Shown piece by piece: positions 1-28,902 of a DNA stretch of 46,218 bases. A model generated the notes under the pieces. It was given only the letters and a program-made list of their open reading frames with translations. It made no database searches and had not been told where the DNA came from. A program made the translations under genes and the position numbers. Origin of the DNA: a virus; the IMG/VR virus record IMGVR_UViG_3300019886_000008, positions 1 through 46,218 of that record; one strand, written 5' to 3'. Every line of letters begins with the position of its first letter. Position 1 is the first letter of the stretch.

Positions 1-866
1 ATAGCGGCGACGGCGCCGAGAAGACTGCCGGCACCTGCTGCTGTCGTCTGCCAATTCTTAAACATGGATACTTTCCTGGTTGGGGAAGCCACGATGGCTT
101 CTGGGGATATCTGGTCAATAGGAACCTGACCTGTTTGCGGGGGCAGGAACACGGCAAAACTTCCAATGGCCGACTCTACCACGGCCATCTCTTTTTGAAG
201 CATGGCAATCTGCGCCGCGTATGCGTCGCGCATGCCGTGCATCTGATCGAGCACCGCCGCCTGGCGGCCGGCGTTGGTCGCATCAACCAAGACTGCGTGC
301 GCCGCTGGGACCGTGGCTGGCACGATAATTTTTGGCGCCTCGGTAGTGGCCGATTTCGCCGCATCAACTTTGGCGATGGACTGTGAGAGCATCCAAGTGT
401 TGTAGGCGTCGTATGCGTGTCCTATGCGCCCGGTGCCAGGGTTCCCGTTCATTGGCAGGGTGCCGAGACCGGCGGTCGCCCGCGCGGGATTTTCAAACAC
501 CCAACAGAAATTCGCCGTCAGGTTTTCGATCGGCCGAGTGCCAGGGTTTCTAATTTGGGCATCGAGAGAAACAAAATATTTCCCGAGTTCCCAAATTGCA
601 TAGTCGCATTGAGTGAGGAGATCGTCTCGAAGGTTGGGGCCACGCGCATCGCAGAACCCAGCCAACCGCGTCTTGCGCGGGGCGCCGTTCGAGTCTCGCC
701 ACTCTAGAAAGCCGCCGCTACCGTGATCGGCATTGACGCGCTCGAAGGTGCTGTCGAGATTGACGCCGCTCTCGCCGCACCCATTGCCGACGATGGCCGC
801 TGCTCCGAACGGATGATAGCCATTCTCGACGAAGTGTGAGAGGGCGATCTGTTGGCGCTCTGTCAT
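1..866 (-). CDS. Endolysin-like phage tail-lysozyme with C-terminal membrane segment (partial, cut by left edge)
   Basis: An open frame runs from an ATG at 866 off the left edge (288 complete codons, no stop). Its ATG overlaps the stop of the upstream fibre gene as ATGA. The first ~140 residues resemble the phage tail-lysozyme family (Phage_lysozyme2 type): an IALSHFVENGYHPFGAAAIVG segment followed by GCGESG, where the Glu is the expected catalytic acid. The same layout occurs inside the 1104-aa virion protein at 12617-15931. A charged, helical linker follows. From the codon at 65 comes FKNWQTTAAGAGSLLGAVAA, which resembles the start of small phage holins, and an AGGAAAG Shine-Dalgarno sits just before that in-frame ATG. 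It could therefore be an endolysin fused to a membrane anchor, or two nested products. A role in wall degradation at lysis is inferred. Confidence 0.7.
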   Translation of the reverse strand, partial: MTERQQIALSHFVENGYHPFGAAAIVGNGCGESGVNLDSTFERVNADHGSGGFLEWRDSNGAPRKTRLAGFCDARGPNLRDDLLTQCDYAIWELGKYFVSLDAQIRNPGTRPIENLTANFCWVFENPARATAGLGTLPMNGNPGTGRIGHAYDAYNTWMLSQSIAKVDAAKSATTEAPKIIVPATVPAAHAVLVDATNAGRQAAVLDQMHGMRDAYAAQIAMLQKEMAVVESAIGSFAVFLPPQTGQVPIDQISPEAIVASPTRKVSMFKNWQTTAAGAGSLLGAVAA

Positions 867-2851
867 TGTTCAAACGCACTCATGTTGATATTGGATGGCG
901 TGCACGTGCTCCCAGATGTGGAAGCTACCGCTATGTCGTACCAAAGAGCCACATTCAGAGTCTGCGATGAAGAAGGAATCGCATTTAACGAAAATGGGAA
1001 TTGAACATTGTTTGAAGTGACGATGGATGTTGTAAGACCGGTTCCAGTCGAGGCCGCGCCGTTCGTCGGTGCGGTTCCCGTCCCAAAGCGCAAATTTACA
1101 AAGCAGCTCTGACCGCTGGTGCTGTTTAATATGTCGCCACCGACAATAAATAGGATATTGCCGGTCTTTGTTGGGGTGATCGCTCCGGCCAATCCCATCA
1201 TTACGCTGGAAGTGCTCGTTGTCGGGGTTGGGGCTGATGGGTTCTTCTGGATTGCTGCTCCGGAGCGGGCCACCCAAGAGGGGTTCTGACCGCCACCATT
1301 TGTCTGCAGGATTTGCCCGGAAAGACCGGGGCCAAGGACGCTCCACGTAGACGAGCCGCGGTAGACGATCGAGCCCTGCGTAGACCCAAGAGTGTTGTCC
1401 AGGACCGCTGACATGGTGTTGTCAAGTGGCGCCGCAGACCCTCCGCTGATGTTGCTTTTTATGGTGCTATTGGCGGCGTTCGCGAGTGCCACGGTCCCCG
1501 TGGTCGTAACGGGGCCGCCAGTGAGACCGGTTCCGGTCGCGACATTGGTGACCGTGCCGGTGCCGACAACCGCCGTCCAGGTTGGATTGGCGGAGACGCC
1601 CTGCGTCGTTAGAACCTTGCCGGAGGTATCGGGAGCAAGAACCGTCCAACCAGAGCCGGACCGATAGAGAATGTCTCCCTGTGCATTGCCGGCAGCCGAG
1701 TCGATAATCGATGTAAGGGTGTTCCCAATCGGAGCCGCAGAGCCGCCGGTGATGTTGCTCAGCACGGTCCCCGCGGTTACGACGCTATACGGTGTCGTGG
1801 AATAAACGACATTGCCGCTTGTGTCGACGCCTGTGGCGACGTTGCCAGCCGGGGCGGTCGAGGAGAACACGCCACCAAGGGCAACAGCCGTTGGGGCGGT
1901 GACGGTCGAAGATGTCCAGGATGGGTTGGCGGCAGCGCCGCCGCTCTGCAGGAACTGGCCAGCGGTGCCTGGCGTGAGAGCATTCCATGCGCTCGCTCCG
2001 CGGTAGAGGATATCGCCTTGAACATTTCCAATGGCGGAATCGATAACCGCAGACGGGGTGTTGTCGATCGGCGCCGCCGCGCCGCCGCTGACGTTGCTCT
2101 TGATGGTGTTGTTCGAGGCGCTGGCGAGCGAGATCGTGCCCGACGTGGCTATGGGGCCGCCCGTGAGGCCGGTGCCCGTGATGATGTTTGTGACGGTGCC
2201 CGTGCCGAGGATTGATTGCCACGCCGGATTTGCGCTTGGTCCCTGCGTTGCGAGGACCTGCCCGTTGGTCCCTGGCGGCAGAGCAGCCCAGCCGCCGGAG
2301 CCACGATAAAGGATATCGCCCTGGACCGACCCAAGTTGGGCGTCTATCGCGGGGGAGAGCGGCGTGACGCCGGCCGAAAATAGCTGCCCGTACTGGCCAA
2401 AGAGCTCGCGCTGGCCAGCGATGAGCGTTGAAATGGATTGCTCGTACTCGCGTCGGCTGATGCCAGGTGCGGTCGGAACTGTGAGATTGCGAGGATGCCA
2501 ACAGCCGGCGACAATCACCGTCCCGCTCGTCACCGGGGGAGTGAAGTTCACGACGATGTCGGTGACCGGCAGCGCGAGAGTGTTCAGCGCCTTGCCGCTG
2601 GCCGAAGCGCAATTCCAAAGGCTCGACGGATAGGAGTAGAGCGTTCCCGCAATCGTGACCTGGAGGTCGGAGCAATCACCGAAGACCGGAAATCCGACCT
2701 GCACCTGCATGGTGCTCGAGGTGATGTTGTAGGTCTGCGTGCGGTTCGCGTCGGCGATCGGCGGGATCGGTGGCGGAGCCTGCGCGAACGCAAAAGGTGC
2801 AAGTAAGGCACCAAATGCTGCAAGTAAGGTCCAAGTCGCTGCTTTCAGCAT
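863..2851 (-). CDS. Exported tail-fibre/adhesin-like repeat protein (662 aa)
   Basis: I chose the ATG at 2851 because it gives a textbook Sec signal peptide (MLKAATWTLLAAFGALLAPF then AFAQ) and overlaps the upstream stop by 7 bp. The open frame extends further upstream without adding plausible protein. Residues 25-168 are a unique N-terminal domain. Residues 169-529 hold four tandem ~100-residue units built around QGDILYRG...GxxLxTxGxxANPxW and GTGTVTN...GTGLTGGP, repeats typical of phage tail fibres. Residues ~545-662 form a C-terminal head domain (ITPTKTG, GTGTAPTNGAA, QFPF, final EQ) that is clearly homologous to the whole of the 193-aa protein at 5226-5807. Low-charge, Ser/Thr/Gly-rich composition fits an extended beta-fibre. 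The signal peptide is unusual for a virion component; it may be displayed on or secreted from the infected cell. Confidence 0.8.
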   Translation of the reverse strand: MLKAATWTLLAAFGALLAPFAFAQAPPPIPPIADANRTQTYNITSSTMQVQVGFPVFGDCSDLQVTIAGTLYSYPSSLWNCASASGKALNTLALPVTDIVVNFTPPVTSGTVIVAGCWHPRNLTVPTAPGISRREYEQSISTLIAGQRELFGQYGQLFSAGVTPLSPAIDAQLGSVQGDILYRGSGGWAALPPGTNGQVLATQGPSANPAWQSILGTGTVTNIITGTGLTGGPIATSGTISLASASNNTIKSNVSGGAAAPIDNTPSAVIDSAIGNVQGDILYRGASAWNALTPGTAGQFLQSGGAAANPSWTSSTVTAPTAVALGGVFSSTAPAGNVATGVDTSGNVVYSTTPYSVVTAGTVLSNITGGSAAPIGNTLTSIIDSAAGNAQGDILYRSGSGWTVLAPDTSGKVLTTQGVSANPTWTAVVGTGTVTNVATGTGLTGGPVTTTGTVALANAANSTIKSNISGGSAAPLDNTMSAVLDNTLGSTQGSIVYRGSSTWSVLGPGLSGQILQTNGGGQNPSWVARSGAAIQKNPSAPTPTTSTSSVMMGLAGAITPTKTGNILFIVGGDILNSTSGQSCFVNLRFGTGTAPTNGAASTGTGLTTSIVTSNNVQFPFSLNAIPSSSQTLNVALWYDIAVASTSGSTCTPSNINMSAFEQ
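1265..2347 (-). repeat. Four tandem coding repeats in the fibre-like gene
   Basis: Four units start at about 2347, 2044, 1705 and 1402 (minus strand). They encode residues 169-269, 270-382, 383-483 and a truncated 484-529. Units 1 and 3 are the closest pair (both carry GTGTVTN and GTGLTGGP). Unit 2 has a diverged middle, and unit 4 ends after QNPSW, where the head domain begins. Degenerate amino-acid repeats of this kind are a site for recombination-driven change of fibre length. Confidence 0.75.
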
Positions 2852-4215
2852 GAGTGTGGACTCGATGGCACGGTGCCGGTCTGAGGAATGACGAAGCCAG
2901 GCGGTCCCCACGTCGGAGGTAGACCAACGAAACTCACCGGCGAGTTGAACACCGGGCTTCCGGCGGCGATCTTGTAGGCCCAGCATGTGAGCATCGGGTC
3001 TTCGAGCACAGGATTTGAATCGGTGTAATCACCGGTCGTGCTGATGGCCGCCCCGGTATAGGCGCGATAGGCATTGTTCGCGACAAGCAGCGGGTTCACG
3101 GGCGAGCCGCTGATCTTTTGGTAGCCCGTGCCGCCGCCGCCGCTAATGACGATGTTGTTCTGGAAATGGTTGCCGCTCATCGTTCCTGCCACGCAGCCGG
3201 TGCCGGCCGATGTTTGGTAGCCGATCGTCTTTTGGCCGCGCGTGGACAGATCGATCAGGTTTCCAGAGAAGACATTGTTGTTCCCACCATGAATGTGCGT
3301 GGTGTTCCCGCCGCTGTTCCCCGTGACGACGTTGCCGGATATGGTCACATTCGACATACAATCGTCGAGATAGATCGCGCTCCCGCTATTCAGGCCGCCG
3401 ATCACGGCGCCGTCTTCGATGTAATTATTTTTGATCTTTACGCCAGTCGCGGTCGCCGCAGTATCGATGACGTAGATCGCGCCGCAGTCAGACAGGCTCG
3501 TGCATGTGCTGGCTACATAATTTCCTTGGATCACCAGGTTCGAGATATTGCCGCTCACATTCGAAAACGCGATACCGAACGATGCGATCCTCGTGACAGC
3601 GTTGTTCGTGATGACAGCACTCGCGCAGCCATAGCAATGAATGCCGGCCTCGTTCTGTGACCCCACGCAATTGCCGGAGTTAACTACACAGAAACCATCG
3701 GAAACGATATTGTTTTTGACGGTCAGCGATTGGCTTCCGCCAAGACTCGAGATCGCGGAATACCGGAAATTATGAAGCTTCAGTCCGATGATCGTGATGT
3801 TGTGTGCATTGCCGACAAAGAATATATCCCAAAGCCCGGTCCCGTCCGATGTCGAGCCGCCTGTAATATCAGCATTATTCACGCCATCAGGCGGATAATT
3901 TGACCACGTCTGGCCATCGTCGGTCGTCGTTTGCAGGGCGACGGCGCAAGTGGTCGTGCCATTGCAGATCGAGGCATCGGCGGCCGGCGGCGCGTAGCTT
4001 CCAGAACGGATGTAGCAGGTTTTGTTGGTTGCGCTTCCCTCCATCGCCAGCTTGCACTGATGGAGCGTCGCAAACGGTGCGGCCAGCGTTCCGACGTTGC
4101 TGTCATTCCCATTGGTCGCGACGTAGAACGCCGGTGCGATCGTGTCGAGTACGGTGAAGCCGGGCGCGCAGGCAATTCCCACAGCAGCCGCGAAGAGGAT
4201 CGCTAGCCAGCGCAT
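2845..4215 (-). CDS. Exported right-handed beta-helix protein (456 aa)
   Basis: The start is placed at the ATG at 4215, which gives a signal peptide MRWLAILFAAAVGIACAPGF; a GTG eight codons upstream adds nothing. The mature protein opens with FYVATNGNDSNVGTLAAPFA, the usual N-terminus of DUF1565/pectin-lyase-like beta-helix proteins. It continues with regularly spaced solenoid rungs (NITIIGLKLHNF, LTVKNNIVSDG, AVITNNAVTRI, LVIQGNYVAS, VKIKNNYIEDG, VTISGNVVTGN). Ten or more Cys residues would suit disulphides after export. It overlaps the next gene by 7 bp. By family and position it may bind or cleave a surface polysaccharide; I see no catalytic site I can name. Confidence 0.8.
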   Translation of the reverse strand: MRWLAILFAAAVGIACAPGFTVLDTIAPAFYVATNGNDSNVGTLAAPFATLHQCKLAMEGSATNKTCYIRSGSYAPPAADASICNGTTTCAVALQTTTDDGQTWSNYPPDGVNNADITGGSTSDGTGLWDIFFVGNAHNITIIGLKLHNFRYSAISSLGGSQSLTVKNNIVSDGFCVVNSGNCVGSQNEAGIHCYGCASAVITNNAVTRIASFGIAFSNVSGNISNLVIQGNYVASTCTSLSDCGAIYVIDTAATATGVKIKNNYIEDGAVIGGLNSGSAIYLDDCMSNVTISGNVVTGNSGGNTTHIHGGNNNVFSGNLIDLSTRGQKTIGYQTSAGTGCVAGTMSGNHFQNNIVISGGGGTGYQKISGSPVNPLLVANNAYRAYTGAAISTTGDYTDSNPVLEDPMLTCWAYKIAAGSPVFNSPVSFVGLPPTWGPPGFVIPQTGTVPSSPHSC

Positions 4216-4313
4216 AGGCGTGCCGCCGCGATCACACACGGGATGCCGTATATCGCGATGGCGAATAGCAGCCCGATCAACATAAGATTGTGTGTGAGGT
4301 CATCTGGCGTCAT
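4203..4313 (-). CDS. Small membrane peptide (36 aa)
   Basis: The ORF fills most of the gap between the 261-aa gene and the beta-helix gene. It starts MTPDDLTHNLMLIG, then has one hydrophobic helix (LIGLLFAIAIYGI, CVIAAA), and its stop lies inside the beginning of the beta-helix gene (13-bp overlap). The Shine-Dalgarno is weak. It may be a genuine microprotein or a leader that couples translation. No function can be assigned. Confidence 0.4.
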   Translation of the reverse strand: MTPDDLTHNLMLIGLLFAIAIYGIPCVIAAARLCAG

Positions 4314-4382
4314 CGAGCGTGGTTCCAGCCATCAGAATGGCCAGACACTCATGGTTCCTACGCGCGTGGCAACGCACCAAGG

Positions 4383-5168
4383 TCAGGGGGGTGCACTCTT
4401 TATTTCAATGGCCAGCGCTACACTGGTGACGGCTTGACTCGCCCATGTCCAAGCAACCGCCGTCTTGTTGATTGCCCATTCCGCCGAAAGCTCGCCCGTG
4501 AATTGATTTGAGAGCCCGACGAATCCGGTACCCTCAACTATCGCAGCCGCCGCATTGTTGCGAACGAATCCATAGGCTGCATTGGTGGGCGCGCCGAGCG
4601 CCGCAAGTGTCGCGGTGATCCCTGTATTTGTTCCACTCCCATTGGTGCCGGCAAACTGGACAACGGCTCCTGAGCCATGCGTGCCAGACAGGTCGACATT
4701 CGAAAACTCATCGACGGACCATCCTATAAAGTTCTGATTAATCCCACCGAAGTCAATAGTTAGCTGGCCTGAATGAGGAACAGGAGATAAGTCGCGGAAC
4801 ATGTGAACGCCGCGAATTCCGCCGCCATCAAACTGGCTGCCAATCAAAACCCACGTGCCGCCAGCGCCAGACACAGTCGGGACTTGCGCGGTGCTTCCCG
4901 TTACCGTGATGATGTCAAGCTTGTTTGCGCCGATAAGGGTGTGGTCCGCTGTGAAGGCGTTAACTGTGTTTGTCTGAAAGCCGAAGGTCAGATTTTTGGC
5001 AGAAATTGGTGGATTGATATAGACCGATGCCCCATCGACATACGCAAAACGGCCCGTCCCGTCATGCGTGGCTTTGATGGCGTCTATCTGGAACATCCTA
5101 ACGATACTACTTGTGACGCTGTCGAATACATCTGTAAGCTCGAAATCCAATAATCCAGTCATCGCCAT
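4383..5168 (-). CDS. Modular fibre-like protein with shared 'FDS' module and paralogous C-domain (261 aa)
   Basis: Residues ~8-55 carry a module (FELTDVFDS...QIDAIKATH...YVDGASVYINPP) also found in the genes at 7864-8364 and 8380-9183. Residues ~75-258 are homologous to the exported 291-aa protein at 5804-6679; shared blocks include VSGAGGTWVxI, FRDLSP, LTIDFGGxNQ, GTHGSGAxVQ, NAAYGFxRN, and the end WTWASQxVTSVAxAxEIK. Unlike that paralogue it has no signal peptide of its own, but an 18-codon hydrophobic ORF ends 4 bp upstream. Probably a surface or fibre component; ligand unknown. Confidence 0.7.
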   Translation of the reverse strand: MAMTGLLDFELTDVFDSVTSSIVRMFQIDAIKATHDGTGRFAYVDGASVYINPPISAKNLTFGFQTNTVNAFTADHTLIGANKLDIITVTGSTAQVPTVSGAGGTWVLIGSQFDGGGIRGVHMFRDLSPVPHSGQLTIDFGGINQNFIGWSVDEFSNVDLSGTHGSGAVVQFAGTNGSGTNTGITATLAALGAPTNAAYGFVRNNAAAAIVEGTGFVGLSNQFTGELSAEWAINKTAVAWTWASQAVTSVALAIEIKSAPP

Positions 5169-5172
5169 GCCC

Positions 5173-5229
5173 TCATAGTGGGGGATTTATAAAGAGCCAT
5201 AGAAGGAGCGCGAGGAGAAGTATCTTCAT
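5173..5229 (-). CDS. 18-codon hydrophobic leader-like ORF
   Basis: The ATG at 5229 overlaps the stop of the 193-aa gene as ATGA. The ORF encodes MKILLLALLLWLFINPPL and stops 4 bp before the ATG of the 261-aa gene. The product looks like a bare signal-peptide core. It could be a translational coupler, a tiny membrane peptide, or the remnant of a signal peptide once fused to the downstream gene, whose paralogue is exported. Coding status is uncertain. Confidence 0.3.
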   Translation of the reverse strand: MKILLLALLLWLFINPPL

Positions 5230-5807
5230 TGCTCCACCGCTACGACATTCGCATTAGTTATAGTACAGGTACTAGCTACCGTAATAAACAAAGATACGTC
5301 TATCCAAACGGCAGTGCCTACAGTTAGACCGGTTACAAGCGCAGAAAGCGCGAATGGAAACTGATTTGCAGCCACCGGCTGTTTAAGATTAAAACTAGTT
5401 CCACGCGTAGTTCCTGTTGCCGCCGCCCCATTGATAGGCGCCGTCCCCGTACCGGTGCGGATTTGAGCAGTACATACAGAGGCGAGTGTATTATTTGCTA
5501 TGGTTCCGTTTATTGTGATGAAGACCGTTCCAGTCTTAACCGGGGTGATGGTCCCGCCAAGCGCCATCATCACGCCCGGCGTAGTGGCCGTTGTCGCCGC
5601 GGGCGCCGCGGATGTGGCAGTGGTCGCGGCACCTAAAATCCCCGAGAACGCACACTTGCTGCTGACGCCGCCTATCGTGCAGTAGAACAGGTCCGTACCA
5701 GCATATGGAGTCGTCCCCGCCGGGAGCGTCGGTAGCGTCTGCTGCGCGAAGGCGGACGAGCATCCCAGGGTTGCCGCGAGAAGAAGAGAGAATAGAAGTT
5801 TTCTCAT
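5226..5807 (-). CDS. Exported head-domain protein (193 aa)
   Basis: It begins MRKLLFSLLLAATLGCSSAF with cleavage likely after FAQ; the LGC could alternatively make it a lipoprotein. The mature part (VMMALGGTITPVKTG, NGTIANNT, RTGTGTAPINGAAATGT, QFPFALSA, VWIDVSLF, final VEQ) is homologous to the last ~115 residues of the 662-aa fibre. It therefore looks like a free-standing copy of the fibre's head domain. Its ATG overlaps the stop of the 291-aa gene by 4 bp (ATGA), so the run is translationally coupled. Confidence 0.7.
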   Translation of the reverse strand: MRKLLFSLLLAATLGCSSAFAQQTLPTLPAGTTPYAGTDLFYCTIGGVSSKCAFSGILGAATTATSAAPAATTATTPGVMMALGGTITPVKTGTVFITINGTIANNTLASVCTAQIRTGTGTAPINGAAATGTTRGTSFNLKQPVAANQFPFALSALVTGLTVGTAVWIDVSLFITVASTCTITNANVVAVEQ

Positions 5808-6679
5808 AAGAACATATCCAAGCCAGCGTCTGTGAGAAGTGCAGATGTGTTTTGCAAAAGAAGGATTGCGCCGCCCAGATCACCCCCAGGGCCCAATCCA
5901 AGGACAGGCCATGGACTCGCCTGCGGGACAACCGGACCAGTTGATGCCTTTATCTCAGCGGCTATAGCAACGCTGGTCACTGACTGACTCGCCCAGGTCC
6001 AATCAACGGTATTATCGTTCAGTTTCCATTCGGCAACATGCTCGCCGCCGGCGGTCATGAAATTAGCAAGGCTCGTGAACCCAGAGCCGATCGTTATTGT
6101 GTTCGCGCCGCTGTTTCGAATGAAGCCATAGGCCGCGTTATTGGCCGAACCAAAGGCGGAAAGAGTTATAAGGCCGCTAGTTGTGGTCCCCGTCGCCGGA
6201 TTGAGGCTGCCGGTCTGAACGATGGCGCCGGAACCATGAGTACCTGTCGTATCTGTCCCTTGAAGCTGATCAATGGACCACCCGACACTGCCTTGGTTCA
6301 CTCCGGCAAAATCTATCGTTAGGATGCCGCTGCCTGGTGAGGCCGACAAGTCTCTGAATAACGTTACCGTCCTGGCGCCAGCGCTTCCGTCACTAACGGT
6401 TGCTATTTGGACCCACGTTCCACTCGCTCCCGTTACCGTGGGAACGGTTGCGGGCCCGGCGCCTGTGAAATTTCGAGAGGCGACACTAACGATAACAAGC
6501 GCATTTGCCGTTGGCGAAATGCTTGCAGTTGTCGTGGAAGTAACCGAGGCAGCGCTGCCCGTCGTGAGATTAGAAGCGGTGATCGCCGCCCATGCTTCAG
6601 GGCACGCCAGACATAGTAAGATACTGGCTGTTGCAAGCCTGAGTATAATCGAGCGCGTTAGAGCAGCCGCCACCGGCAA
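5804..6679 (-). CDS. Exported paralogue of the 261-aa fibre-like protein (291 aa)
   Basis: The N-terminus (MPVAAALTRSIILRLATASI followed by LLCLACPEAWA) is a Sec signal peptide. Residues ~32-245 match residues ~60-258 of the 261-aa protein at 4383-5168, with identical motifs (TVTGASGTWVQI, FRDLSASPGSGILTIDF, GTHGSGAIVQ, TWASQSVTSVAI). The last 45 residues (Gly/Leu-rich, ending GLDMFL) are not shared. The start overlaps the preceding small ORF by ~80 bp, which is long for this genome, but no later start preserves the signal peptide. Beta-rich adhesin or fibre domain; function inferred only from context. Confidence 0.7.
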   Translation of the reverse strand: MPVAAALTRSIILRLATASILLCLACPEAWAAITASNLTTGSAASVTSTTTASISPTANALVIVSVASRNFTGAGPATVPTVTGASGTWVQIATVSDGSAGARTVTLFRDLSASPGSGILTIDFAGVNQGSVGWSIDQLQGTDTTGTHGSGAIVQTGSLNPATGTTTSGLITLSAFGSANNAAYGFIRNSGANTITIGSGFTSLANFMTAGGEHVAEWKLNDNTVDWTWASQSVTSVAIAAEIKASTGPVVPQASPWPVLGLGPGGDLGGAILLLQNTSALLTDAGLDMFL

Positions 6680-6770
6680 TGAAGCCTCCTCGCCCGTAGC
6701 CGGACATCATAAGTTGTTGCGCCATCGCGGGCCCGACCCACGAGAAATAAGCTATCGCGGCGAGTACCAG
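6597..6770 (-). CDS. Small possible exported peptide (start uncertain)
   Basis: The frame contains a signal-like stretch (LVLAAIAYFSWVGPAMAQQ) followed by LMMSGYGRGGFIAGGGCSN and two further Cys. No ATG precedes the hydrophobic part. A CTG at 6770, 2 bp after the upstream stop, would include it; the first ATG (6725) gives a 42-residue product without it. It overlaps the start of the 291-aa gene. It may be real, a leader, or a decayed gene. Confidence 0.35.
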   Translation of the reverse strand: MVLAAIAYFSWVGPAMAQQLMMSGYGRGGFIAGGGCSNALDYTQACNSQYLTMSGVP

Positions 6771-6772
6771 TC

Positions 6773-7867
6773 CTATTTGTATGCAATAGTAAGCGATACG
6801 GCGGATGCGGTCGCGTTCGTTACGTCCGTCGTAGCATACCCCGAGGATACGCAAATCCCGATCCCAGTGGCGAAGGCAAGCCCTGCCGAGATGTCCTGGA
6901 CGAAACCGGCGCCGCTCGTGGAGGCGGGGATCGCAAGCTGATAGACCAAATTGGTTGCAGATGAACATGTCGGCGCACTCGCAGTATTATAGAACCGCAC
7001 GTAGTTAATCGTCGCGGAATTGTTCGTCGCCGTGACGTGGTAGACCTGCCCTGCTGAGGCCTTCACGCTGGTGGAATTCGTGGTAGCTGCAGGTTGAAGG
7101 AAGAAAGTCGTAAGTCCGCCAGCCGTTGTCGGGGTTGGCTGAGCGTTCACAGAGAATGGAGTATTGTCAGACGAAACCGTGACGCGCGGCGAACCGGTGC
7201 CGGTCACGCCGTTGCCCATAAGCGGCGTGACGCCGTTGATCTGCTTTATATTGTCCTGTGCAACAGTAGCGGTGATTGAGCCAGCTATCGTCGCGAGATT
7301 GCCCCCGCTCTCTAGGGCAAGAGCTGCAGTGCTGGTATTGAGGCCGGCGTTTGAGAGGACGCGAAGGTTACCAGAAGTGTCGAGCGAAAGAGGGTCCGTC
7401 TTTGCGGTTACATAGGTCGGTGCCCCCGTTGTTACCGCACCCTGCGCAAGGGGTCCATTTTGACCGGACGTATTTCCACCTTGTGCATCGCCTACCTCGC
7501 CAATCAAGGCCGAGCCCGCCGCAAGAGCAGGAAGCGTGGTAATTGTGCCTATGTTCCATGTGCCTGATTGCGTGACGGCGCCGATGACGTTGGCACCAGT
7601 CGGCAATCCGGTATTCGGGCTGAAGGTTACAACCGTCGCCTGATCGCCAGCCACTGCTGCGGTGCTTGCGGCCTTGACGCTGGTGCAATTCGCGCCAGCA
7701 GATTGATCGCAGGTCACGACGTGCGAGAGATTGAACCCGGAGCCGTCAGTCGTTGTGACGATGGTTGCGCCGGAACCGGGAGTGACGCCAATCGAGCCTG
7801 CGCCAGCAAACGCCTGTGTGGCGCCGAGAAGGAGGGCAAGAAGCGCGATCCTAACGCGGTTCATCAT
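6773..7867 (-). CDS. Exported fibre-like protein (364 aa)
   Basis: The open frame begins upstream, but the ATG pair at 7867/7864 overlaps the stop of the 166-aa gene and gives a clear signal peptide, MMNRVRIALLALLLGATQAF then AGAGS. The rest is Ala/Thr/Ser/Gly-rich beta-type sequence with low charge (SGTWNIGTITTLPA, SVKASAGQVYHVTATNNS, YVRFYNTASAPTC, AFATGIGICVSSGYATTD, ending LTIAYK). The C-terminal ~110 residues resemble a compact beta-sandwich like those at the ends of phage fibres. Part of the coupled exported cassette; no enzyme motif seen. Confidence 0.7.
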   Translation of the reverse strand: MMNRVRIALLALLLGATQAFAGAGSIGVTPGSGATIVTTTDGSGFNLSHVVTCDQSAGANCTSVKAASTAAVAGDQATVVTFSPNTGLPTGANVIGAVTQSGTWNIGTITTLPALAAGSALIGEVGDAQGGNTSGQNGPLAQGAVTTGAPTYVTAKTDPLSLDTSGNLRVLSNAGLNTSTAALALESGGNLATIAGSITATVAQDNIKQINGVTPLMGNGVTGTGSPRVTVSSDNTPFSVNAQPTPTTAGGLTTFFLQPAATTNSTSVKASAGQVYHVTATNNSATINYVRFYNTASAPTCSSATNLVYQLAIPASTSGAGFVQDISAGLAFATGIGICVSSGYATTDVTNATASAVSLTIAYK

Positions 7868-8364
7868 AGTATGGACTCCACAACAAGCTGATCGGTAGGA
7901 GTGGGCGGCCCAACCGGCACGATCGGTTGGGGATTGGGGAAGATTGAAGCCCCGCTCACATATGAGAAGCGCGCAGGATAGATATGCACGGCAAAAATCG
8001 CGTCGATTTGGAACATGATGCGCAGGACGTTTAATGTCATGTCGAAGACGACAGTCAGCTCCCACGGGAATATTTGAACTGCTTGCTCTATGTTCGTGTC
8101 GAGGTCCACACTCGCCGCAGGACCGAAGATTGGCAACGCACTTGCGGGCGCCAGACCGGTTGCGGGGAGCGGGTTGTCGCTCCCGTATGGATTGGGGATC
8201 ACGTAGCTGTATCGCGCGGGGAAGTTTGCGACGGCACTGTTCCCGTCCACGAGCGGCAAAGAGATTTCCTTCGCTGCAACCGAATCGAAAACCATGACGA
8301 TCGGATCGTGCGGCGTGCTCGGTGGGATTCCCACCCCATCGCTTGGATACCGAGGATCGTACAA
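7864..8364 (-). CDS. Two-module protein of the phage 'FDS/PARY' family (166 aa)
   Basis: It consists almost entirely of two homologous ~50-residue modules. The first has VFDSVAAKEISLPLVDG, FPARYSYVIPNPYG and DNPLPATGL. The second has ELTVVFDMTLNVLRIMFQID, YPARFSYVSGA and a Pro-rich tail. The first module nearly duplicates the first module of the 267-aa neighbour, and the second matches its second module and the N-terminus of the 261-aa protein. No signal peptide. It looks like a repeated connector or docking domain of tail appendages; I do not recognise the family. Confidence 0.65.
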   Translation of the reverse strand: MYDPRYPSDGVGIPPSTPHDPIVMVFDSVAAKEISLPLVDGNSAVANFPARYSYVIPNPYGSDNPLPATGLAPASALPIFGPAASVDLDTNIEQAVQIFPWELTVVFDMTLNVLRIMFQIDAIFAVHIYPARFSYVSGASIFPNPQPIVPVGPPTPTDQLVVESIL

Positions 8365-8379
8365 GGTGCCGATCTCCTG

Positions 8380-9183
8380 CTATGCAGAATTGAACGTCGC
8401 ATAAATGCTGATGGACACATTGGTGAACGTCGTGCCGCCAGGATAAGTGCTTGGAAGAGTCACGTCGCCGCCGGCGTCAAAATAGAACTTCGGAGGGCCG
8501 ACGCTATCAAACTTACCTCCCATTGTCGTTCCGATCGCCAAAACTGCAATATTGATAACCGTCCCGGCCGAAACCAACGGATTTGTGAGCGCTGGATGTG
8601 TTTCGAATCCTACCGCCCCTGGTACAAAACTTGCCGTTTTTGCGAGAAGCAAACCAGGTGACGCGCCAGCCCCACTATTATCGTACATACCCAAAAATGC
8701 TGTCGCGCCGGTTGCAATTCTTGAGTGCACCGAGATGGATTGTAAGACACCGTCTTGCGGCATCGTGAAGCCGCCGCCGAGACAGGTCGCGCCGGCGGAA
8801 TAAGTTCCATTGCTTCCCCCGATGGCGGTATAACCAACATTGAAAGGAACTGGCGGCGGCACATCCCCCACCGGCGCCCCACTTACCCATGTATAGCGCG
8901 CCGGAAATTTGTGCGTGGCAAAGATGGCGTCGATCTGTTGCATTTCAACTTGGACACCAAGCAGGCTGTCAAATACGACTGTGAGCTCAAACGTCAAAAG
9001 CGTAGATGTTGATGGCAGGCCGGTCGCGGGAAGCGGGTTATCATTGCCATACGGATTGGCGATGACATAGCTATAGCGCGCTGGGAATCTCGCGACGGCA
9101 TCATTGCCATCGACAAGCGGGATGGAAATCTCTTTGCCGAGGACGGAGTCAAAGACCTGGACGATTATGGGCCCGCCGGTCAT
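8380..9183 (-). CDS. FDS/PARY two-module protein with C-terminal beta domain (267 aa)
   Basis: Residues ~8-60 (VFDSVLGKEISIPLVDG, FPARYSYVIANPYG, DNPLPATGL) and ~66-115 (ELTVVFDSLLGVQVEMQQID, FPARYTWVSGA) are tandem copies of one module. Residues ~120-267 form a separate Gly-rich, jelly-roll-like domain (VGYTAIGGSNGTYSAG, QSISVHSRIATGATAFLGMY, ending ISIYATFNSA). The ATG overlaps the stop of the 1144-aa virion gene as TAATG, so it is the first gene of the appendage cassette and coupled to the virion module. A short-tail fibre or fibre-attachment role is plausible. Confidence 0.65.
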   Translation of the reverse strand: MTGGPIIVQVFDSVLGKEISIPLVDGNDAVARFPARYSYVIANPYGNDNPLPATGLPSTSTLLTFELTVVFDSLLGVQVEMQQIDAIFATHKFPARYTWVSGAPVGDVPPPVPFNVGYTAIGGSNGTYSAGATCLGGGFTMPQDGVLQSISVHSRIATGATAFLGMYDNSGAGASPGLLLAKTASFVPGAVGFETHPALTNPLVSAGTVINIAVLAIGTTMGGKFDSVGPPKFYFDAGGDVTLPSTYPGGTTFTNVSISIYATFNSA

Positions 9184-12100
9184 TAATTCACTGCCCTATG
9201 TTTGCGGCGCGGTTTTGGTGGCGCCGGGGGCGGTTGGGGAGGCGGCGCGACAGGTGCTGGGGCGGGCGGTTGCGGCTCTTGCGGCGGCGCTACAGGGGCT
9301 GACGCTGGCTGCGGCATCGGTGCGGCGACAGGCTTTTGCGCATGGTGTGACCGCGGCGGTCCGGTCTTTTCGGCGCGAGGCGCCGACTCCTCTGGCTCCT
9401 CATGCGAGACGGTTTTTGGCACCTTAAAACCAAAGGTGCGGTCGATGCCAGCTTCAACTTTGTCAAGCTGGATTCGCAAGCCCATTAGATTTTGCAGCGG
9501 CAGCATAACCCGCAAATTATGGACGTCGCTACCACCGAAATTGCTTACATCTCCCTTCTTGGTTGAGTGCGAAGTCACTGCGTGAGCCGCAGTCGTCAAG
9601 GTCCTTTCAGCGAAATCGGCAGTCGGCCCCATAAACTGTCCGGCTAGGTCAACATCGGCTCGGCGAGATGGTGGCGTGTACGCTCCATAAAGCCGATCAA
9701 ATGACCATTGCCCGCGCGTCGCTCCTGACACCGATCGATTTAGCTCTCCAAACCATCCTGTCATAGCGCTCCGGTCGAGAGATTCCTTGATCCATTCCGG
9801 GAAGGTCTTCGGCTGTGGCTGACCGGACAGCTCATGATAAAGGAATGTCGCAAGCGCTCCCATGCCCATGGTCGTCAAGACGCCCTGCAGCGAACGAAAA
9901 TCGCGCTGTTGCAAATTGGCGATCAGAATTTTCTCGGTCGCCGCCGCCATAAAGTTCCGATACTGCGTGAGCATCCCGGCGAACTTGTTGTCCATGAAAA
10001 TCGGCTTGTCTCCAATGCCGGCCTGCATCACGGTCATGGAGCTTTCATGTTGCAAAGCAGCGCCGAAAGCCTCACGCGCACCTTGGTCAGTCCAATCAGA
10101 GAGATTGGCGATCTTGCGGCCGTCTACTTCAGTACCGTGCGCTTCATATTGCTTACTAATACGGACCGCCATCTCACGGCTGATTGAGTTTTGCGCGAGA
10201 AACTCAATCTCTTTCGCCGATGCAGTCCCGTCCGCAACACGAGCCGTTCTCCTGCCTATTTCTCCCTGCGTTACAAGAGAGGACAGGCTTTTCGCCAAGT
10301 CAGTCAGTGGAGTGTGGAAATTTAGAATCATGGATTTATCGGCCCCCCACGCCATCGCGCGAGATAGCCTGTTTTGCGGCGCGGAGTCGGATATGTCGTA
10401 AAGATTGTGCCGGATGTGGCCGAGCATTCCGTCAACGCCCAATCCTGCGTCCTTGGCTTGCTCCCTGACGATGCCGCGGAACTGCGATGACATGAAGCTC
10501 TTGATCATCGGCATCCAAGAATCGCGGAAGACGGTCTTCAGCCCATAGCGAAAGATACCATTCGAAAGATCGGTGAGCCGCACGGTAGACGATGTTCCGA
10601 GCTGGCGGGTGAGGTTGTAGTTTTGGAAGTCGCGGATCGCGGCGGCAGCCTTCCGCGACCAAGGGGATAAATCCCAACCTTGAACACCTCGGAACCGATC
10701 TCGGGCTGCCTCCAGGTCAGCAAGCACGCCGTCGCGCTCCTTGATGATCTTCGTTCCGTCCGAGCCCGGCAGTATTTTGGCCGCATATTCTTCCTCAATA
10801 CGTCTGCGCACATCGGTCATTGCGACATCGCCGAAGCGCCGCGTCATCAGCACGTCGGGAACGATGGAACGTACTATCGACGCGACTCCTTGCATGGCGT
10901 CGGTCTTGATGAGGCCGCGATTGATAAGCTCATTTACCTCGATCGGCATCTTGCGTTCACGGAGCGATCCGCGAAGGTCGCTTAGGCCGGGGTGGAAGTC
11001 TGTGCCAGCCGACTGAACATCGTAATCGAGTCGGCCGTCCGGCGACCCTATTAGCCGATTCGTCCACTCTTCCGCGCGAGACCGTAGCTCTTGGCGAGAG
11101 AGACCAGTCTCTACTTTGAGCATGCGCTGGGCCGCCTCCTCTGGCGCTTCCCCTTCTTTGAGCGCAGACTTGCCTTTCCACTCGTTGACTGCAGATAGGT
11201 CGCCGCCGGAAATCCTAGCTTGTAATCCGGCCTTTGCCTCTTGCTCGCGGCCAAGATAATCGGTGAACAAATCACGCGTGCCAGCATAATCCTTCACGAT
11301 TGCATCGCGGTCCGGCATCAGGGGGAAAAACGATTTGGCCCCCTTCGGGGCGGACAGGTCTTCTGACAATAGAGGATTGCCGTTCACATCCTTGGTGTCT
11401 TTCGCCATCTGCGCGACCGGATCGAAAATCTTTGACCGCAGGTCTTTCGCCGCTTGCTGGACTTCCGGCACTGCATGCTCGTCGCCGTTGTGCATTGCGG
11501 CGCCTGTTTTCTGAAGAAAGTCACGGTAGCTGAGTTTATCGGCCGTAGTCGGAGCACCGACTCCCTCCTTCGCGGCGGCGAACTTGAGCGTCCCTGGCTG
11601 ATTAGAGCCGTAGTAGTGCTGCTTCCACGCATCATCAAGGATGTCATGTGCCTGCGCCTGGTATCGATTCTTGATATCGAGAGCGACGTTTTCGAGGGGC
11701 GGTCCGAATGGCGCAACTTGATCGCCAGGCTTGAACTGCAACCCGGTGTTGGCGATGTCGTTCATCGCCCGCTTGGCCTCGAGACTGTCCGATCCGTAAA
11801 TCCGCAGGTTCGGAGACGCGCCCCATTTCTGAACGCCGAACGCGCTTTTCATGTCGAGCTGGCGCGTGTCTACAGGAGCCGCTCCGGCCGGCTGCATAGC
11901 GGCCTGGACAGCGGGAGGCTGGACTTCCACCGGAGCCATCGTTCCATCGGTATTTATGCGCGGTCGCGCTGCTTCCACCTCGGCAGTTGCTCGCTCCATT
12001 TCCGGCCCGGATAGATGACTGCCAGCTTTGCCCAAGACACCGCCGAGGATGGCGCCGGTTCCGATGTTCTCCCCATACTCTTTCCAGGTCGATCCGCCTG

Positions 12101-12617
12101 GTTTGGAAGCAGCTCCATAGGCGCCGAACGCCGCTCCATAGGCCGCCGTGGCCGCTGTTGCTCCGAGCCGCTCCTCGCCGAGGATTGGGATTGCCATTGT
12201 TGGATCGATGAAGCCAGCCGCGACACCCGCGATGGTTCCAGGCCAGCCGGCGGAATCTAGCACCTTCTGATTGGCCGCGTGCTGATCCTGCTCGGCCATC
12301 AGGTATTTGGTGTAAGCCTCGTTTTGTGAACCGGCATAGATCGAAAGCTGATCACCTTCGTGCGGCGTACCCTTGAGGGTGTCCAAGGGATTGTAGCCAG
12401 GTGTCGGTTTGTTCTCTGGCATCGACTGCGCAGCCGCGTGCGCATTCAAAAAGTTTCCCGTGAAGGTACCGGGCTGACGTAGAGCCGCGTCAATCGTCTC
12501 GCTTGCCGATGGCGCAGGAGTTGGGGCCGCGGGAACCGGTTCAGCGGCTTGCGGGGGCGGAGGAGCCGACGTTGCTAGATCAGGATCGCTCTGCGCGCCT
12601 TCGGTGAATAAGGGCAT
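9183..12617 (-). CDS. Large internal virion (ejection) protein (1144 aa)
   Basis: Size and position, directly after another >1100-aa virion protein and a gp14-like protein, match the internal/ejection proteins of T7-like podoviruses (gp15/gp16 set), which enter the cell envelope with the DNA. The N-terminus is Pro/Ala-rich. Residues ~125-200 hold Ala/Gly-rich hydrophobic segments (IAGVAAGFIDPTMAIPILG, ATAATAAYGAAFGAYGAA, GTGAILGGVLG) that could insert in membranes. The middle is long and helical. The last ~80 residues are a Pro/Ala-rich tail ending in basic KPRRKHRAVN. No catalytic motif is obvious. It shares a 1-bp TAATG-type junction with both neighbours. Confidence 0.75.
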   Translation of the reverse strand: MPLFTEGAQSDPDLATSAPPPPQAAEPVPAAPTPAPSASETIDAALRQPGTFTGNFLNAHAAAQSMPENKPTPGYNPLDTLKGTPHEGDQLSIYAGSQNEAYTKYLMAEQDQHAANQKVLDSAGWPGTIAGVAAGFIDPTMAIPILGEERLGATAATAAYGAAFGAYGAASKPGGSTWKEYGENIGTGAILGGVLGKAGSHLSGPEMERATAEVEAARPRINTDGTMAPVEVQPPAVQAAMQPAGAAPVDTRQLDMKSAFGVQKWGASPNLRIYGSDSLEAKRAMNDIANTGLQFKPGDQVAPFGPPLENVALDIKNRYQAQAHDILDDAWKQHYYGSNQPGTLKFAAAKEGVGAPTTADKLSYRDFLQKTGAAMHNGDEHAVPEVQQAAKDLRSKIFDPVAQMAKDTKDVNGNPLLSEDLSAPKGAKSFFPLMPDRDAIVKDYAGTRDLFTDYLGREQEAKAGLQARISGGDLSAVNEWKGKSALKEGEAPEEAAQRMLKVETGLSRQELRSRAEEWTNRLIGSPDGRLDYDVQSAGTDFHPGLSDLRGSLRERKMPIEVNELINRGLIKTDAMQGVASIVRSIVPDVLMTRRFGDVAMTDVRRRIEEEYAAKILPGSDGTKIIKERDGVLADLEAARDRFRGVQGWDLSPWSRKAAAAIRDFQNYNLTRQLGTSSTVRLTDLSNGIFRYGLKTVFRDSWMPMIKSFMSSQFRGIVREQAKDAGLGVDGMLGHIRHNLYDISDSAPQNRLSRAMAWGADKSMILNFHTPLTDLAKSLSSLVTQGEIGRRTARVADGTASAKEIEFLAQNSISREMAVRISKQYEAHGTEVDGRKIANLSDWTDQGAREAFGAALQHESSMTVMQAGIGDKPIFMDNKFAGMLTQYRNFMAAATEKILIANLQQRDFRSLQGVLTTMGMGALATFLYHELSGQPQPKTFPEWIKESLDRSAMTGWFGELNRSVSGATRGQWSFDRLYGAYTPPSRRADVDLAGQFMGPTADFAERTLTTAAHAVTSHSTKKGDVSNFGGSDVHNLRVMLPLQNLMGLRIQLDKVEAGIDRTFGFKVPKTVSHEEPEESAPRAEKTGPPRSHHAQKPVAAPMPQPASAPVAPPQEPQPPAPAPVAPPPQPPPAPPKPRRKHRAVN

Positions 12618-15600
12618 TATTGCCGTCCGTTAAGCATGCCGACCTGGCCGAGTATCCCCATGGCGGTGTGACGGGTACCAAACTTCTCTTCCGCCTCATC
12701 CATGGCCTGCTTGGGATCGGCGACAAACCGGCTAGGAAGAGCGCCCCACCTCCCGTTTGCGTCCTTAACGACAACTTGATAGGTGGGAGCCGTGCCGGAG
12801 TGCATTTCGTCGGCGGTCCGCTGATCGGGAATAAGATAGTGATCGCTCGAGCCAGGAGCCAATCGCGCAACATCATCGGCGAGCTGCTTCCCGATATAAG
12901 ACTTGTCGCCATCGACGGGCGGATAAGCGGATGAATATTCAGGCGGGTGCATCATGACTCGGCCGTCGTTCGCGCCGGATGCTCCCCACGTGGTCGCGAG
13001 CTTGCCTAGGGCGTAATCCTTGGCCGCAGACGCGTCGCCGGTCTTGAGGTACTGCTCGCGGAAAAGGTCGTCGTATTGGCCCTTCAAGGCCGTGCCGGAA
13101 AGCGAATCGCCAGGCGTGGCGTTCGGTCCTAGCCATGCCGGCGAGAGTGCATTGGCGACCGACTGCGGCGTCATCTTGTTGGCGATCGCAACTTCATCGT
13201 TGCGCGATTTGATGACAGACGGATTCGAGCTGGCCTTAGCGGCCTCTATGCGCTCCTCTGGTGTCTGGAATTGCCCGACACTATGCCAGGCGGCGAGGTC
13301 AGAGGATGCGTCTTCGCCAAATCGCCTGTCGAATGTCTGCGGATTGGATTTCCACGCCTCGGTCAAAAGATCATTCGCCGCGCCTGCCCGCGTGACATCC
13401 CCAGAATGAGCCATATTGACCACGGCCTTCGCGATCGTCGGGTCGGCGAGCGTCGCATCGCGGGACGGCGGCGGAAGGTTCTTGATGCTGTCCAGGATGG
13501 CCTGCGCGGTCTGCGGCGGTCCGTATGTCATCCAATCAGTGAGCTGCGGTTTCTCGGCCTCTGGGATGGCGCTGAGAGATATTCCTGGCTCGCGGCCGGC
13601 AACCCTAGCGATGATGGCAGCTCGAGCCTGTATGCCCTGCGAGATAGATGCCGGATCGTTGTAATTGATCGGACCAGGCGTCTGGCTAGGATCGATCATT
13701 TTCGCGCGGGCCGCATAGCCGATCGGATCATGCGCCAATGCCGCCGTCGCATCCGCATGCTGTTGCTGAATTGCGCCACCGATGCCGGCTTGGAACAAAT
13801 CGTGACCGCCCGCTAGGCGAGAGACGGCCTGTTGATAAGTCTCCGGCCCGGCAGGGCCGCCGTCGCCCGACACCTGGCTTCCACCGGCGCCGGAGCCCGG
13901 CGTAAGGCCGGCGGCCGAGGAGATACGGGAAGCGCGCTCCTGTTCCTTTGGATCGCCGGCGGAGAGCTGGACATATTGCGCCATCGTTTCAGGCGGCGGC
14001 AGGGTGTGGTTTTGCAGCGAGCGTTCGATCGAGCCGCCGAGGTCGTTTGCCGTTTTGGCCCGCACACCCGGATCAGAGGCTACAGACGCGGTGTACGGCG
14101 CCGCTGCCATAGGATTGGCCGCGACGTGCTCTGGCGTGAATGGCTGACCGCTGACGGACGCCTGCGCGCCGCCTCCTGCGAGGTTGCCTTTTGCATAATT
14201 CGCCCAGCGCGCCGCGCCATTGTTCACCGCCGGGGCCTCGTACTTGCCGGTGAAGGCCGATGTTAGAGCGGCTGGGGACGCCGTGGACGTGATCGGCAAC
14301 CCGTACTGGCGAGCTTCCTTGTCGACATATTCAAGCTGGGTATTGAATGAACTCGGGTCCTTACCATTTGCTGTTGCCCAACTCTTGAGAGCCATCGCGC
14401 GAGGTGTATTCCAGTTGGCGATCCCAGAGGCCGCCTCCGCCGCATGCACCCCTCCAAGCCTATCCCAAGATGTGCCGGACGGGCCAAATCCTCCCTCGCC
14501 CTGGTACGCTCCCGTATTAAGCGTCCGCCCGCTTTCGCCAGATAGAGTTGCCACCATGGCGTGAGAAGCATTCGCCGACCATCCCTTGCCGACAAAATAA
14601 TTATAGGCGGCGGCTTGCCTCGTCGGACCGCCGATCGGCGCAGCCGGAGCAGGTTGTCCTTCTGCCAAAGCCGTCCCGCTCTGCGACGGCGTAAGACCTG
14701 CCTTTATGGGATTTACAGCGGTCGCTGGCACATGACCGGCGATGATCGCCACAGTCGCAGGATCGCCCGTCATTATCGCGTGGTTCGACAATGCGCCATA
14801 GGATGGAGGGCTAACCGGAGCGCCAGAATTGGCCATCTTGATGGTGTGATCTGTCGCCTGCCGGTTCGCTTGGATCGAGTCAGCGTTGAGACCATCGATA
14901 TAAGCGACGCGCGAGCTGGCTTGCTGGGTGATCGTCGCGCGGTCCTGGTTGCTCAAGTTCGGGATAGCGTTGACGCCATCAGTCGCGGCTTTGATTGCCG
15001 CCGTTTTGCCGCCTTGCTGATAGGCGTTATCGACCAGGCTCGACACATGGTCGCCGAGAAATCCATTTAGCCTCTGAGCGAGCTGGTTGTCGGCATCTAC
15101 CTTGCTAAGACCAGAGGCCGGGTTGGCGGCGAGCGCCGCATAGCGATCCTGTAGCCTATCTTGTAGATTGTCGTATTGCGGCGAATTGATCTTACCGTTT
15201 CTTGCCAACGTGCTCATGTCAGCCGAGACGGAATCAATGTCAGTTTGGACGGCATGCCCGGAAGCAATCATATTCGCCGAGGTTTGCTTCGCCAGCAAAT
15301 CGCGGTAGTGCTCGTCGCCTACTTTTATCGCGTAAAGTTTGGCTGCCGTGCCGTATTGCTGGCCTAGGGCGTCGTAATTGCGACCTTGAACAAATCCGCC
15401 CCAGGCTTGCTTAAAGCCTTCTGGGCTTCCCTCATTATCGAGACGGATTTTCTGCGCAGCATCAGCAACAGTAATAGATTCCGATGATGCATGGCCGGCG
15501 GCATATGACTTGCTGACCGCGGCGGCAGGGTCGCCGCCGAACAGGCCGCCTAGCGAAGGAATGACGCTTTGGCCGCCACTCTGATCGCGCGTAACCTGAG

Positions 15601-15931
15601 AGGCTGGCGGGCTGCCAACGGAGCTGGCCGCTGGGGCGTCGCTGCCAGCAAGGCCGGCTTGCGCCCCGGCCGCGTAATCGGCGCCTGATTGCTGCTCCTT
15701 GCCACCCTTAACAATGCTATCGATGAGAGGCGAGAACCCCTCGGAGATGCCGTTGGCCAGAGCGGTCAGCGCCTGCGTGCGCGACATCATAGCCTTTGCG
15801 ACCATGTCGCCCGTAACGCCAGGCCGAACCTCTTCCAGAGTTACATTGCCAAGCCGCTCGTAGCCCGCCGCGATGTTTTCTTTGTCTGAGGTCCCTACGA
15901 CCGGACCGCTATCGAGGGGAGACTGCGCCAT
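12617..15931 (-). CDS. Internal virion protein with tail-lysozyme domain (1104 aa)
   Basis: Around residues 436-560 lies a phage tail-lysozyme domain: AYNYFVGKGWSANASHAMVA, then GESG with the expected catalytic Glu near residue 465, GEGGFGPSGTSWDRL, and a later WNTPRAMALKSW. This should cut peptidoglycan locally so that DNA can cross the wall. The rest is Gln/Ala-rich and helical. The C-terminal ~200 residues contain KSYIGKQLADDVARLAPGS and DQRTADEMHSGTAPTYQVV, a layout seen in gp16-like virion proteins. It lies between the gp14-like gene and the second giant internal protein. The domain call is from motif recognition. Confidence 0.8.
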   Translation of the reverse strand: MAQSPLDSGPVVGTSDKENIAAGYERLGNVTLEEVRPGVTGDMVAKAMMSRTQALTALANGISEGFSPLIDSIVKGGKEQQSGADYAAGAQAGLAGSDAPAASSVGSPPASQVTRDQSGGQSVIPSLGGLFGGDPAAAVSKSYAAGHASSESITVADAAQKIRLDNEGSPEGFKQAWGGFVQGRNYDALGQQYGTAAKLYAIKVGDEHYRDLLAKQTSANMIASGHAVQTDIDSVSADMSTLARNGKINSPQYDNLQDRLQDRYAALAANPASGLSKVDADNQLAQRLNGFLGDHVSSLVDNAYQQGGKTAAIKAATDGVNAIPNLSNQDRATITQQASSRVAYIDGLNADSIQANRQATDHTIKMANSGAPVSPPSYGALSNHAIMTGDPATVAIIAGHVPATAVNPIKAGLTPSQSGTALAEGQPAPAAPIGGPTRQAAAYNYFVGKGWSANASHAMVATLSGESGRTLNTGAYQGEGGFGPSGTSWDRLGGVHAAEAASGIANWNTPRAMALKSWATANGKDPSSFNTQLEYVDKEARQYGLPITSTASPAALTSAFTGKYEAPAVNNGAARWANYAKGNLAGGGAQASVSGQPFTPEHVAANPMAAAPYTASVASDPGVRAKTANDLGGSIERSLQNHTLPPPETMAQYVQLSAGDPKEQERASRISSAAGLTPGSGAGGSQVSGDGGPAGPETYQQAVSRLAGGHDLFQAGIGGAIQQQHADATAALAHDPIGYAARAKMIDPSQTPGPINYNDPASISQGIQARAAIIARVAGREPGISLSAIPEAEKPQLTDWMTYGPPQTAQAILDSIKNLPPPSRDATLADPTIAKAVVNMAHSGDVTRAGAANDLLTEAWKSNPQTFDRRFGEDASSDLAAWHSVGQFQTPEERIEAAKASSNPSVIKSRNDEVAIANKMTPQSVANALSPAWLGPNATPGDSLSGTALKGQYDDLFREQYLKTGDASAAKDYALGKLATTWGASGANDGRVMMHPPEYSSAYPPVDGDKSYIGKQLADDVARLAPGSSDHYLIPDQRTADEMHSGTAPTYQVVVKDANGRWGALPSRFVADPKQAMDEAEEKFGTRHTAMGILGQVGMLNGRQ

Positions 15932-28769: not shown

Positions 28770-28902
28770 CAGCCATTTCCTCATGCCCCCAGTCGTCATA
28801 ATTCGGCAAAGGATCAGCGCTACCCGTCACTAAAATATAAAAACCCCCCGCGATGCCGCTAATCGCGTAAATAAAAAACATAACCTTCAGAAAATTGCCC
28901 AT
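28762..28902 (-). CDS. Single-helix membrane peptide (46 aa)
   Basis: The sequence MGNFLKVMFFIYAISGIAGG followed by FYILVTGS, with an acidic end (YDDWGHEEMADD), is one membrane helix plus a short acidic tail. AGGTAG precedes the ATG. The N-terminus resembles that of the next upstream gene (MGKFLRV...). It is coupled to the tailspike by an 8-bp overlap. Function unknown. Confidence 0.55.
   Translation of the reverse strand: MGNFLKVMFFIYAISGIAGGFYILVTGSADPLPNYDDWGHEEMADD

Follow-up and report, generated by a model that had tools for sequence, protein, structure and literature searches.

Fibre-like proteins with predicted Sec signal peptides in the tail region of a podovirus-type phage

A podovirus-type phage was found to encode, next to its internal virion genes, a cassette of fibre-like, surface-binding proteins with predicted Sec/signal-peptidase-I (SPI) signals. 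Their export from the infected cell (host probably alphaproteobacterial) and their disulfide-bonded folding are strongly supported by sequence comparison. Tailed-phage virions are regarded as assembled wholly in the cytoplasm. For variable binding proteins, having no signal peptide has counted in favour of a phage origin (PMC6199706). A phage family that systematically exported fibre-like proteins would break that rule and open disulfide chemistry to phage binding proteins, giving either a new extracytoplasmic assembly step or released receptor decoys as a new class. Our search of the open-licence full-text literature returned no description of tailed phages that export fibre proteins through Sec, which is weak evidence of absence.

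Gene order around the cassette

The window (the whole stretch of 46,218 nucleotides that was analysed) is an IMG/VR virus record with its virion genes on the minus strand. The cassette has internal virion genes on one side and a gene for a lysozyme-domain protein on the other; adaptor genes are coupled to it. Proteins are named below by the coordinate of their start, and a slash marks a predicted cleavage site.

42550-43743: integrase
27825-28799, minus: pectate-lyase/beta-helix-like protein without a signal, adjoining the terminase (PF12708, E 7e-4)
27260-25704, minus: large terminase
24529-22910, minus: portal-like head-tail adaptor
21829-20843, minus: major capsid
19311-16409, minus: tail proteins
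16403-9183, minus: internal virion proteins, with the signal-peptide cassette next
9183-12617, minus: internal virion protein of 1144 aa upstream of the cassette (phrog_342, E 7.7e-73), the anchor for finding relatives
8380-9183, minus: 9183 protein, signal-less, with adaptor units and an FNVGY domain
7864-8364, minus: adaptor-only protein without a signal, having two VFDSV...RYSYV units; its gene is coupled to that of 7867
6773-7867, minus: 7867 protein, 364 aa, fibre-like; predicted signal MMNRVRIALLALLLGATQAFA/GAG, then a repeat region; ATGA-coupled to the upstream adaptor-only gene
6597-6854, minus: leader-like ORF, ...GLVLAAIAYFSWVGPAMA/QQLMMSGYGRGGF...C...C; no well-placed ATG, GTG or TTG (TTG 6854 lies far upstream)
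5804-6679, minus: 6679 protein, 291 aa, fibre-like; predicted signal ...LLCLACPEAWA/AITASN; beta-type domain (phrog_38872, E 1.4e-7)
5226-5807, minus: 5807 protein, 193 aa; predicted signal MRKLLFSLLLAATLGCSSAFA/QQTLP; adaptor-like motif TPYAGTDLFYCTIGGVSSKC; C-terminal domain also in the 2851 protein
5173-5229, minus: putative hydrophobic mini-ORF of 18 codons, MKILLLALLLWLFINPPL; ATGA overlap with the 5807-gene stop
4383-5168, minus: 5168 protein, adaptor-type, no signal peptide; same domain as the 6679 protein
4203-4283, minus: putative hydrophobic mini-ORF of 26 codons, MLIGLLFAIAIYGIPCVIAAARLCAG; overlaps the 4215-gene start
2845-4215, minus: 4215 protein, 456 aa, right-handed beta-helix (PF13229, E 5e-8); predicted signal MRWLAILFAAAVGIACAPG, with a less certain cleavage site; 14 cysteines in the mature chain
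863-2851, minus: 2851 protein, 662 aa, fibre-like; predicted signal MLKAATWTLLAAFGALLAPFAFA/QAPPP; fibre repeats; shares its C-terminal domain with 5807
3-866, minus: Phage tail lysozyme-domain protein (PF18013, E 3.7e-13), ATGA-coupled to the cassette end and running off the window

The five ORFs named in the original prediction (7867, 6679, 5807, 4215 and 2851) all lie on the minus strand at the claimed starts, and the claimed short overlaps are there too: ATGA (4 bp) at 7867/7864 and 5807/5804, and 7 bp at 2851/2845. These starts are credible because the TTG of the 6679 gene sits shortly behind a strong GAGGAGG and other genes begin within the stop of the gene before them (ATGA). The run has a sixth gene, 5168, whose product is a paralogue of 6679 (108/215 identical residues); the 6679 protein carries a C-terminal LLLQNTSALL motif. 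Searches of the cassette proteins against Pfam and PHROGs returned a single family match each (PF13229 for 4215, phrog_38872 for 6679), and a PDB sequence search gave nothing convincing.

Further leader-like ORFs had been proposed among these genes. They are present at 5229-5173, at 4283-4203 and ending at 6597, the last without a well-placed start codon. The two mini-ORFs might act as coupling leaders or encode tiny membrane peptides. The QQLMM... part of the third is conserved in two other loci (L005 and L033), the former keeping the cysteines, and a non-canonical start or a frameshift out of the 7867 gene is possible.

GcrA is a cell-cycle regulator of Alphaproteobacteria, and a GcrA domain stands at the C-terminus of the protein at 33196-34131 (minus). 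We infer an alphaproteobacterial host from this protein, which also suggests cell-cycle interference. The signal-less beta-helix-like protein beside the terminase is a candidate ordinary tailspike. Phage_lysozyme2 domains occur twice, in the internal virion protein at 12617-15931 (minus) and in the cassette-end protein at 3-866 (minus).

Signal peptides and their conservation in relatives

Signals were called with a home-made, rule-based predictor that combines an approximate von Heijne-type matrix with h-region, charge and -3/-1 rules. It passed 5/5 of the named ORFs and 8/8 exported E. coli controls, compared with 0/5 controls that are not secreted and 0/15 of the remaining virion-region proteins, in agreement with the claim of a signal peptide on all five. 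Each of them has a positive n-region, an uncharged hydrophobic h-region and small residues at -3/-1. Because shuffled sequences passed at rates of 0.7% (whole protein) and 7.7% (residues 2-40 of the five), amino-acid composition alone is insufficient to explain this result. The five proteins have neither a lipobox nor a twin arginine, which indicates Sec/SPI signals; lipoprotein and Tat readings were rejected on the same grounds. Signal-bearing genes made up 5/8 of those in the region versus 2/40 in the rest of the window (Fisher 6e-4). On this sequence evidence, Sec export of the cassette proteins is highly probable.

The 1144-aa internal virion protein, used as the query for relatives, recovered one, L005/L011, at 53% identity. 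Its tail region has the same gene order, with about ten consecutive signal-bearing proteins ending near a lysozyme gene, and includes orthologues of 7867, the short QQLMM.. ORF, 5807, 4215 and 2851, plus others. The 7867 and 4215 orthologues carry signals, and the 5807 orthologue (L005 19325) has 70% identity in its mature chain and another signal peptide (MRKLLFSLLLAATLGCSSAFA/QQTLPTLPAGTTPYAG in the window versus MRRLLFLLAFLASPAFA/QQTLPSLPAGSTPYAG in L005). Leaders were 26-65% and mature chains 58-70% identical in three of four window/L005 pairs (4215, 2851 and 5807), the exception being 7867, in which the leader is not less conserved than the mature chain. In a third phage (G002, composed of L197 and L196), signal-bearing proteins, including a homologue of the 2851 N-terminus, come after the genes for terminase, portal, capsid, tail and internal virion proteins. 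The architecture that was to be sought in related podoviruses is kept in L005/L011, in gene order and in some ten signal proteins, and the third relative keeps one. Two more loci, L013 and L046, encode four to five large signal-bearing proteins in succession (five in L013, of 447-1295 aa). The relatives form a group of uncultured phages, and among INPHARED cultured phages there was no close relative of the signal-bearing versions that were tested.

Cysteines and signal-less homologues

The C-terminus of the 7867 protein (residues about 246-364) is a jelly-roll-like domain with a Cys pair. This domain is widespread in phages, with at least 485 confirmed matches, and 34 matches came from bacterial genomes; Foldseek returned weak jelly-roll-type PDB hits and BFVD hits that were mostly uncharacterised phage proteins. 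Across 116 non-redundant, scorable examples, a matched Cys pair (APT-C ... GIG[FIY]-C) was present in 30/35 with a signal versus 0/81 without, a difference whose Fisher p of 6e-23 overstates independence because the examples are related and the signal is clustered on the tree. Signal-less examples as a rule have valine and alanine at the two positions; in one signal-bearing example (L147) the first cysteine of the pair is shifted by one. On a domain tree built without the two Cys columns, the signal label changed 8 times versus 30 for shuffled labels, and the signal/cysteine trait may have arisen only once. Across a set of proteins with, for the most part, about 40-50% identity to the window's domain, signal and Cys pair have been retained jointly.

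Even Cys counts are typical of disulfide-bonded exported proteins. At these loci they were found in 72/83 signal-bearing proteins versus 123/265 others (unclustered), and after single-linkage clustering in 36/45 versus 88/186 families (Fisher 1e-4), a test less tied to one family than that of the Cys pair. Mature chains of the cassette itself hold 14 (4215), 5 (2851), 4 (7867), 4 (5807) and 0 (6679) cysteines, the count of 2851 being odd; the description of several of these proteins as Cys-rich fits only some. Signal-bearing proteins also have signal-bearing neighbours more often, 54/330 beside signal-bearing examples versus 26/820 beside others. Periplasmic folding had been offered as one option, and in its oxidative form it is now well supported by the Cys-pair and parity data. 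Export with oxidative folding of the cassette proteins is very likely, and signal-peptidase cleavage and disulfide formation can be strongly inferred from these sequence patterns. Annotation error, already considered improbable, was rejected given synteny in a divergent relative, co-occurrence of signal and Cys pair, even Cys parity and the clustering of signal-bearing neighbours.

The same modules also occur without signals. The 6679 domain, which follows a signal, has its signal-less counterpart behind the adaptor unit of 5168, and the FNVGY domain, signal-less behind the adaptor units of 9183, is signal-bearing in L005 18687 and 21047 (about 40% identical). Two families unrelated to each other carry the signal as a simple prefix, and their mature chain begins where the signal-less homologue has residue 2. 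In the 7867 family, AFA/ADNTSITPGSGASVATDD with a signal corresponds to (L)ADNLPITPGSGATVATDD without one; signal-less members start M-ADN..PGSG (LADNLPITPGSGATVATDDVGG in L054), and signal-bearing members read ...AFA/ADNTSITPGSGASVATDDVS or ...ALA/ADNALVVTPGSG. In the 6679 family, mature A/AITASNLTTGS (AWA/AITASNL) corresponds to the whole-protein start M/AITVANLANVGS of L001 (M/AITVANL). Since the signal precedes an otherwise complete cytoplasmic phage protein, the exported chains are built like ordinary phage proteins. Signal-less phage proteins of the MADN..NAGSGG type, also present in Caulobacter phages KSC and S2B and Synechococcus phage S-SRP01, have the same C-terminal jelly-roll-like domain (A1 profile) and, as full-length homologues, share their N-terminus with the exported chains, but they differ in having no signal and a Cys pair in 0/81 complete examples. 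A few genes from its signal-less 6679-domain homologue, L001 (1-3620) encodes proteins with very long SPSASESASISPSAS repeats.

Possible roles of the exported proteins

The 2851 protein is the one with a likeness to a known virion fibre. Its mature N-terminus was modelled from three sequences (pLDDT 64), and most of the top PDB hits in Foldseek were docking domains of podovirus tail fibres (HRP29, LME-1, Carin 1, Kp7 and T7 gp17), although with weak scores (E 0.005-0.2, TM 0.37-0.50) for a model of that pLDDT. The resemblance of the modelled N-terminus to a podovirus fibre docking domain is suggestive only. Membership of the T7 gp17 family by sequence profile was rejected, as this N-terminus had no Pfam match at E<=10, PF03906 included, and a probability of about 1% in hhalign profile-profile comparison with T7 gp17-type N-termini. 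Its repeats match Pelagibacter-phage proteins. Like T7 gp17-type fibres (Phage_T7_tail, PF03906), which follow a gp16-like internal virion protein, the 2851-type protein has fibre repeats; its gene lies nearly directly after the gp16-like protein in L196 (one signal-bearing gene between) and several genes downstream of it in the window. Unlike the fibres of T7, K1F and KSC, which have no signal, the window proteins have predicted cleavable Sec signals and Cys pairs.

Our tentative explanation is that the cassette proteins would be made late, with the virion genes, and would accumulate in the periplasm until the lysis genes act and free them. Less surely, they might serve mainly as adsorption appendages that encounter the completed particle at lysis or later, docking through adaptor-type proteins or through their own N-terminal docking-like domain. 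The benefit would be disulfide-stabilised fibres, which could not be made in the reducing cytoplasm. A slight preference for docking comes from the retained whole-protein architecture, the coupling to adaptor genes and the one docking-like domain. We rate the explanation as a whole (export, periplasmic folding and appendages joining the particle at lysis) a little short of an even chance, and the full docking story at that level or somewhat lower. In its widest form, receptor-binding appendages would be Sec-exported, disulfide-bonded, completed in the periplasm and attached at or after lysis, splitting assembly across the membrane and making its last step common to particles of different genomes; this is conceivable and distinctly doubtful.

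Nearly as likely as docking, and by itself rather unlikely, is that the exported proteins never join a virion and serve as soluble receptor- or glycan-binding decoys in periplasm and lysate, against superinfection and the loss of progeny on debris. We entertain this reading because paired domains occur both with and without a signal: the same binding domains sit signal-less on adaptors and follow signals elsewhere in one genome (6679/5168) or in relatives (9183 versus L005 18687 and 21047). Several exported chains also come without a docking module, none being obvious behind the signal of 6679-type proteins. Signal-less receptor-binding candidates exist (27825-28799, 5168 and 9183 in the window; 13180 and 15392 in L005), so the exported proteins are not obviously needed for adsorption and need not be virion parts. 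In G002, no signal-less fibre candidate was found from the terminase to the cassette end, but the contig begins inside the terminase, and the idea that this phage has only exported fibres is weakened because the region upstream, where the window phage has its beta-helix gene, is missing. Decoys fit poorly with an apparent late-operon position, which is late for exclusion, with the large share of genome invested (the five L013 proteins) and with mature chains that retain the full architecture of their cytoplasmic homologues.

An improbable alternative is lysogenic conversion, in which moron-like, envelope-modifying genes with borrowed phage domains would alter the lysogen surface. The phage has an integrase, and an apparent O-antigen acyltransferase gene at 8529-9632 (minus) in L118, which we presume to be one from its LDGLRGIAAIAVVTRH motif, adjoins a signal-bearing fibre cassette and might modify a receptor. 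There is also a precedent in lambda Lom, a signal-bearing outer-membrane protein encoded between the tail spike and the tail fibres (PMC12309495). Lom and similar morons share with the window proteins a signal and a place among tail genes, but Lom is an outer-membrane beta-barrel, whereas the window has a series of proteins built from phage fibre domains and repeats, with no beta-barrel family found by Pfam search and with overlapping stops and starts that couple them to one another and to the run of virion genes. A Sec signal with disulfides is also the usual look of type II substrates, and secretion outside before lysis (for example, through Sec and then host type II), where the proteins would attach to or loosen the exopolysaccharide surrounding the infected cell, would suit the beta-helix member; with no sequence feature pointing there specifically and no catalytic domain identified beyond the beta-helix fold, it is less probable still. 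Least probable of all, the leaders would be hydrophobic N-terminal segments retained for virion assembly or membrane contact. Such segments might mislead a home-made predictor, and the tree clustering implies few independent origins, but mature N-termini are conserved after variable leaders in three of the four pairs (not in 7867), and the Cys pair and even parity likewise argue for cleaved, exported chains.

T5 Llp and P22 SieA are phage-encoded envelope proteins in superinfection exclusion. T4 antiholin RI has a cleaved phage signal peptide (PMC8385771). All three resemble the proteins described here as phage products acting in the envelope, but they are small or membrane proteins, whereas the window encodes fibre-domain arrays without a lipobox. 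Beyond the tail region, signal peptides were predicted for the proteins at 28905-29186 (minus) and 41664-42317 (plus), the latter having 4 mature cysteines and immediately preceding the integrase.
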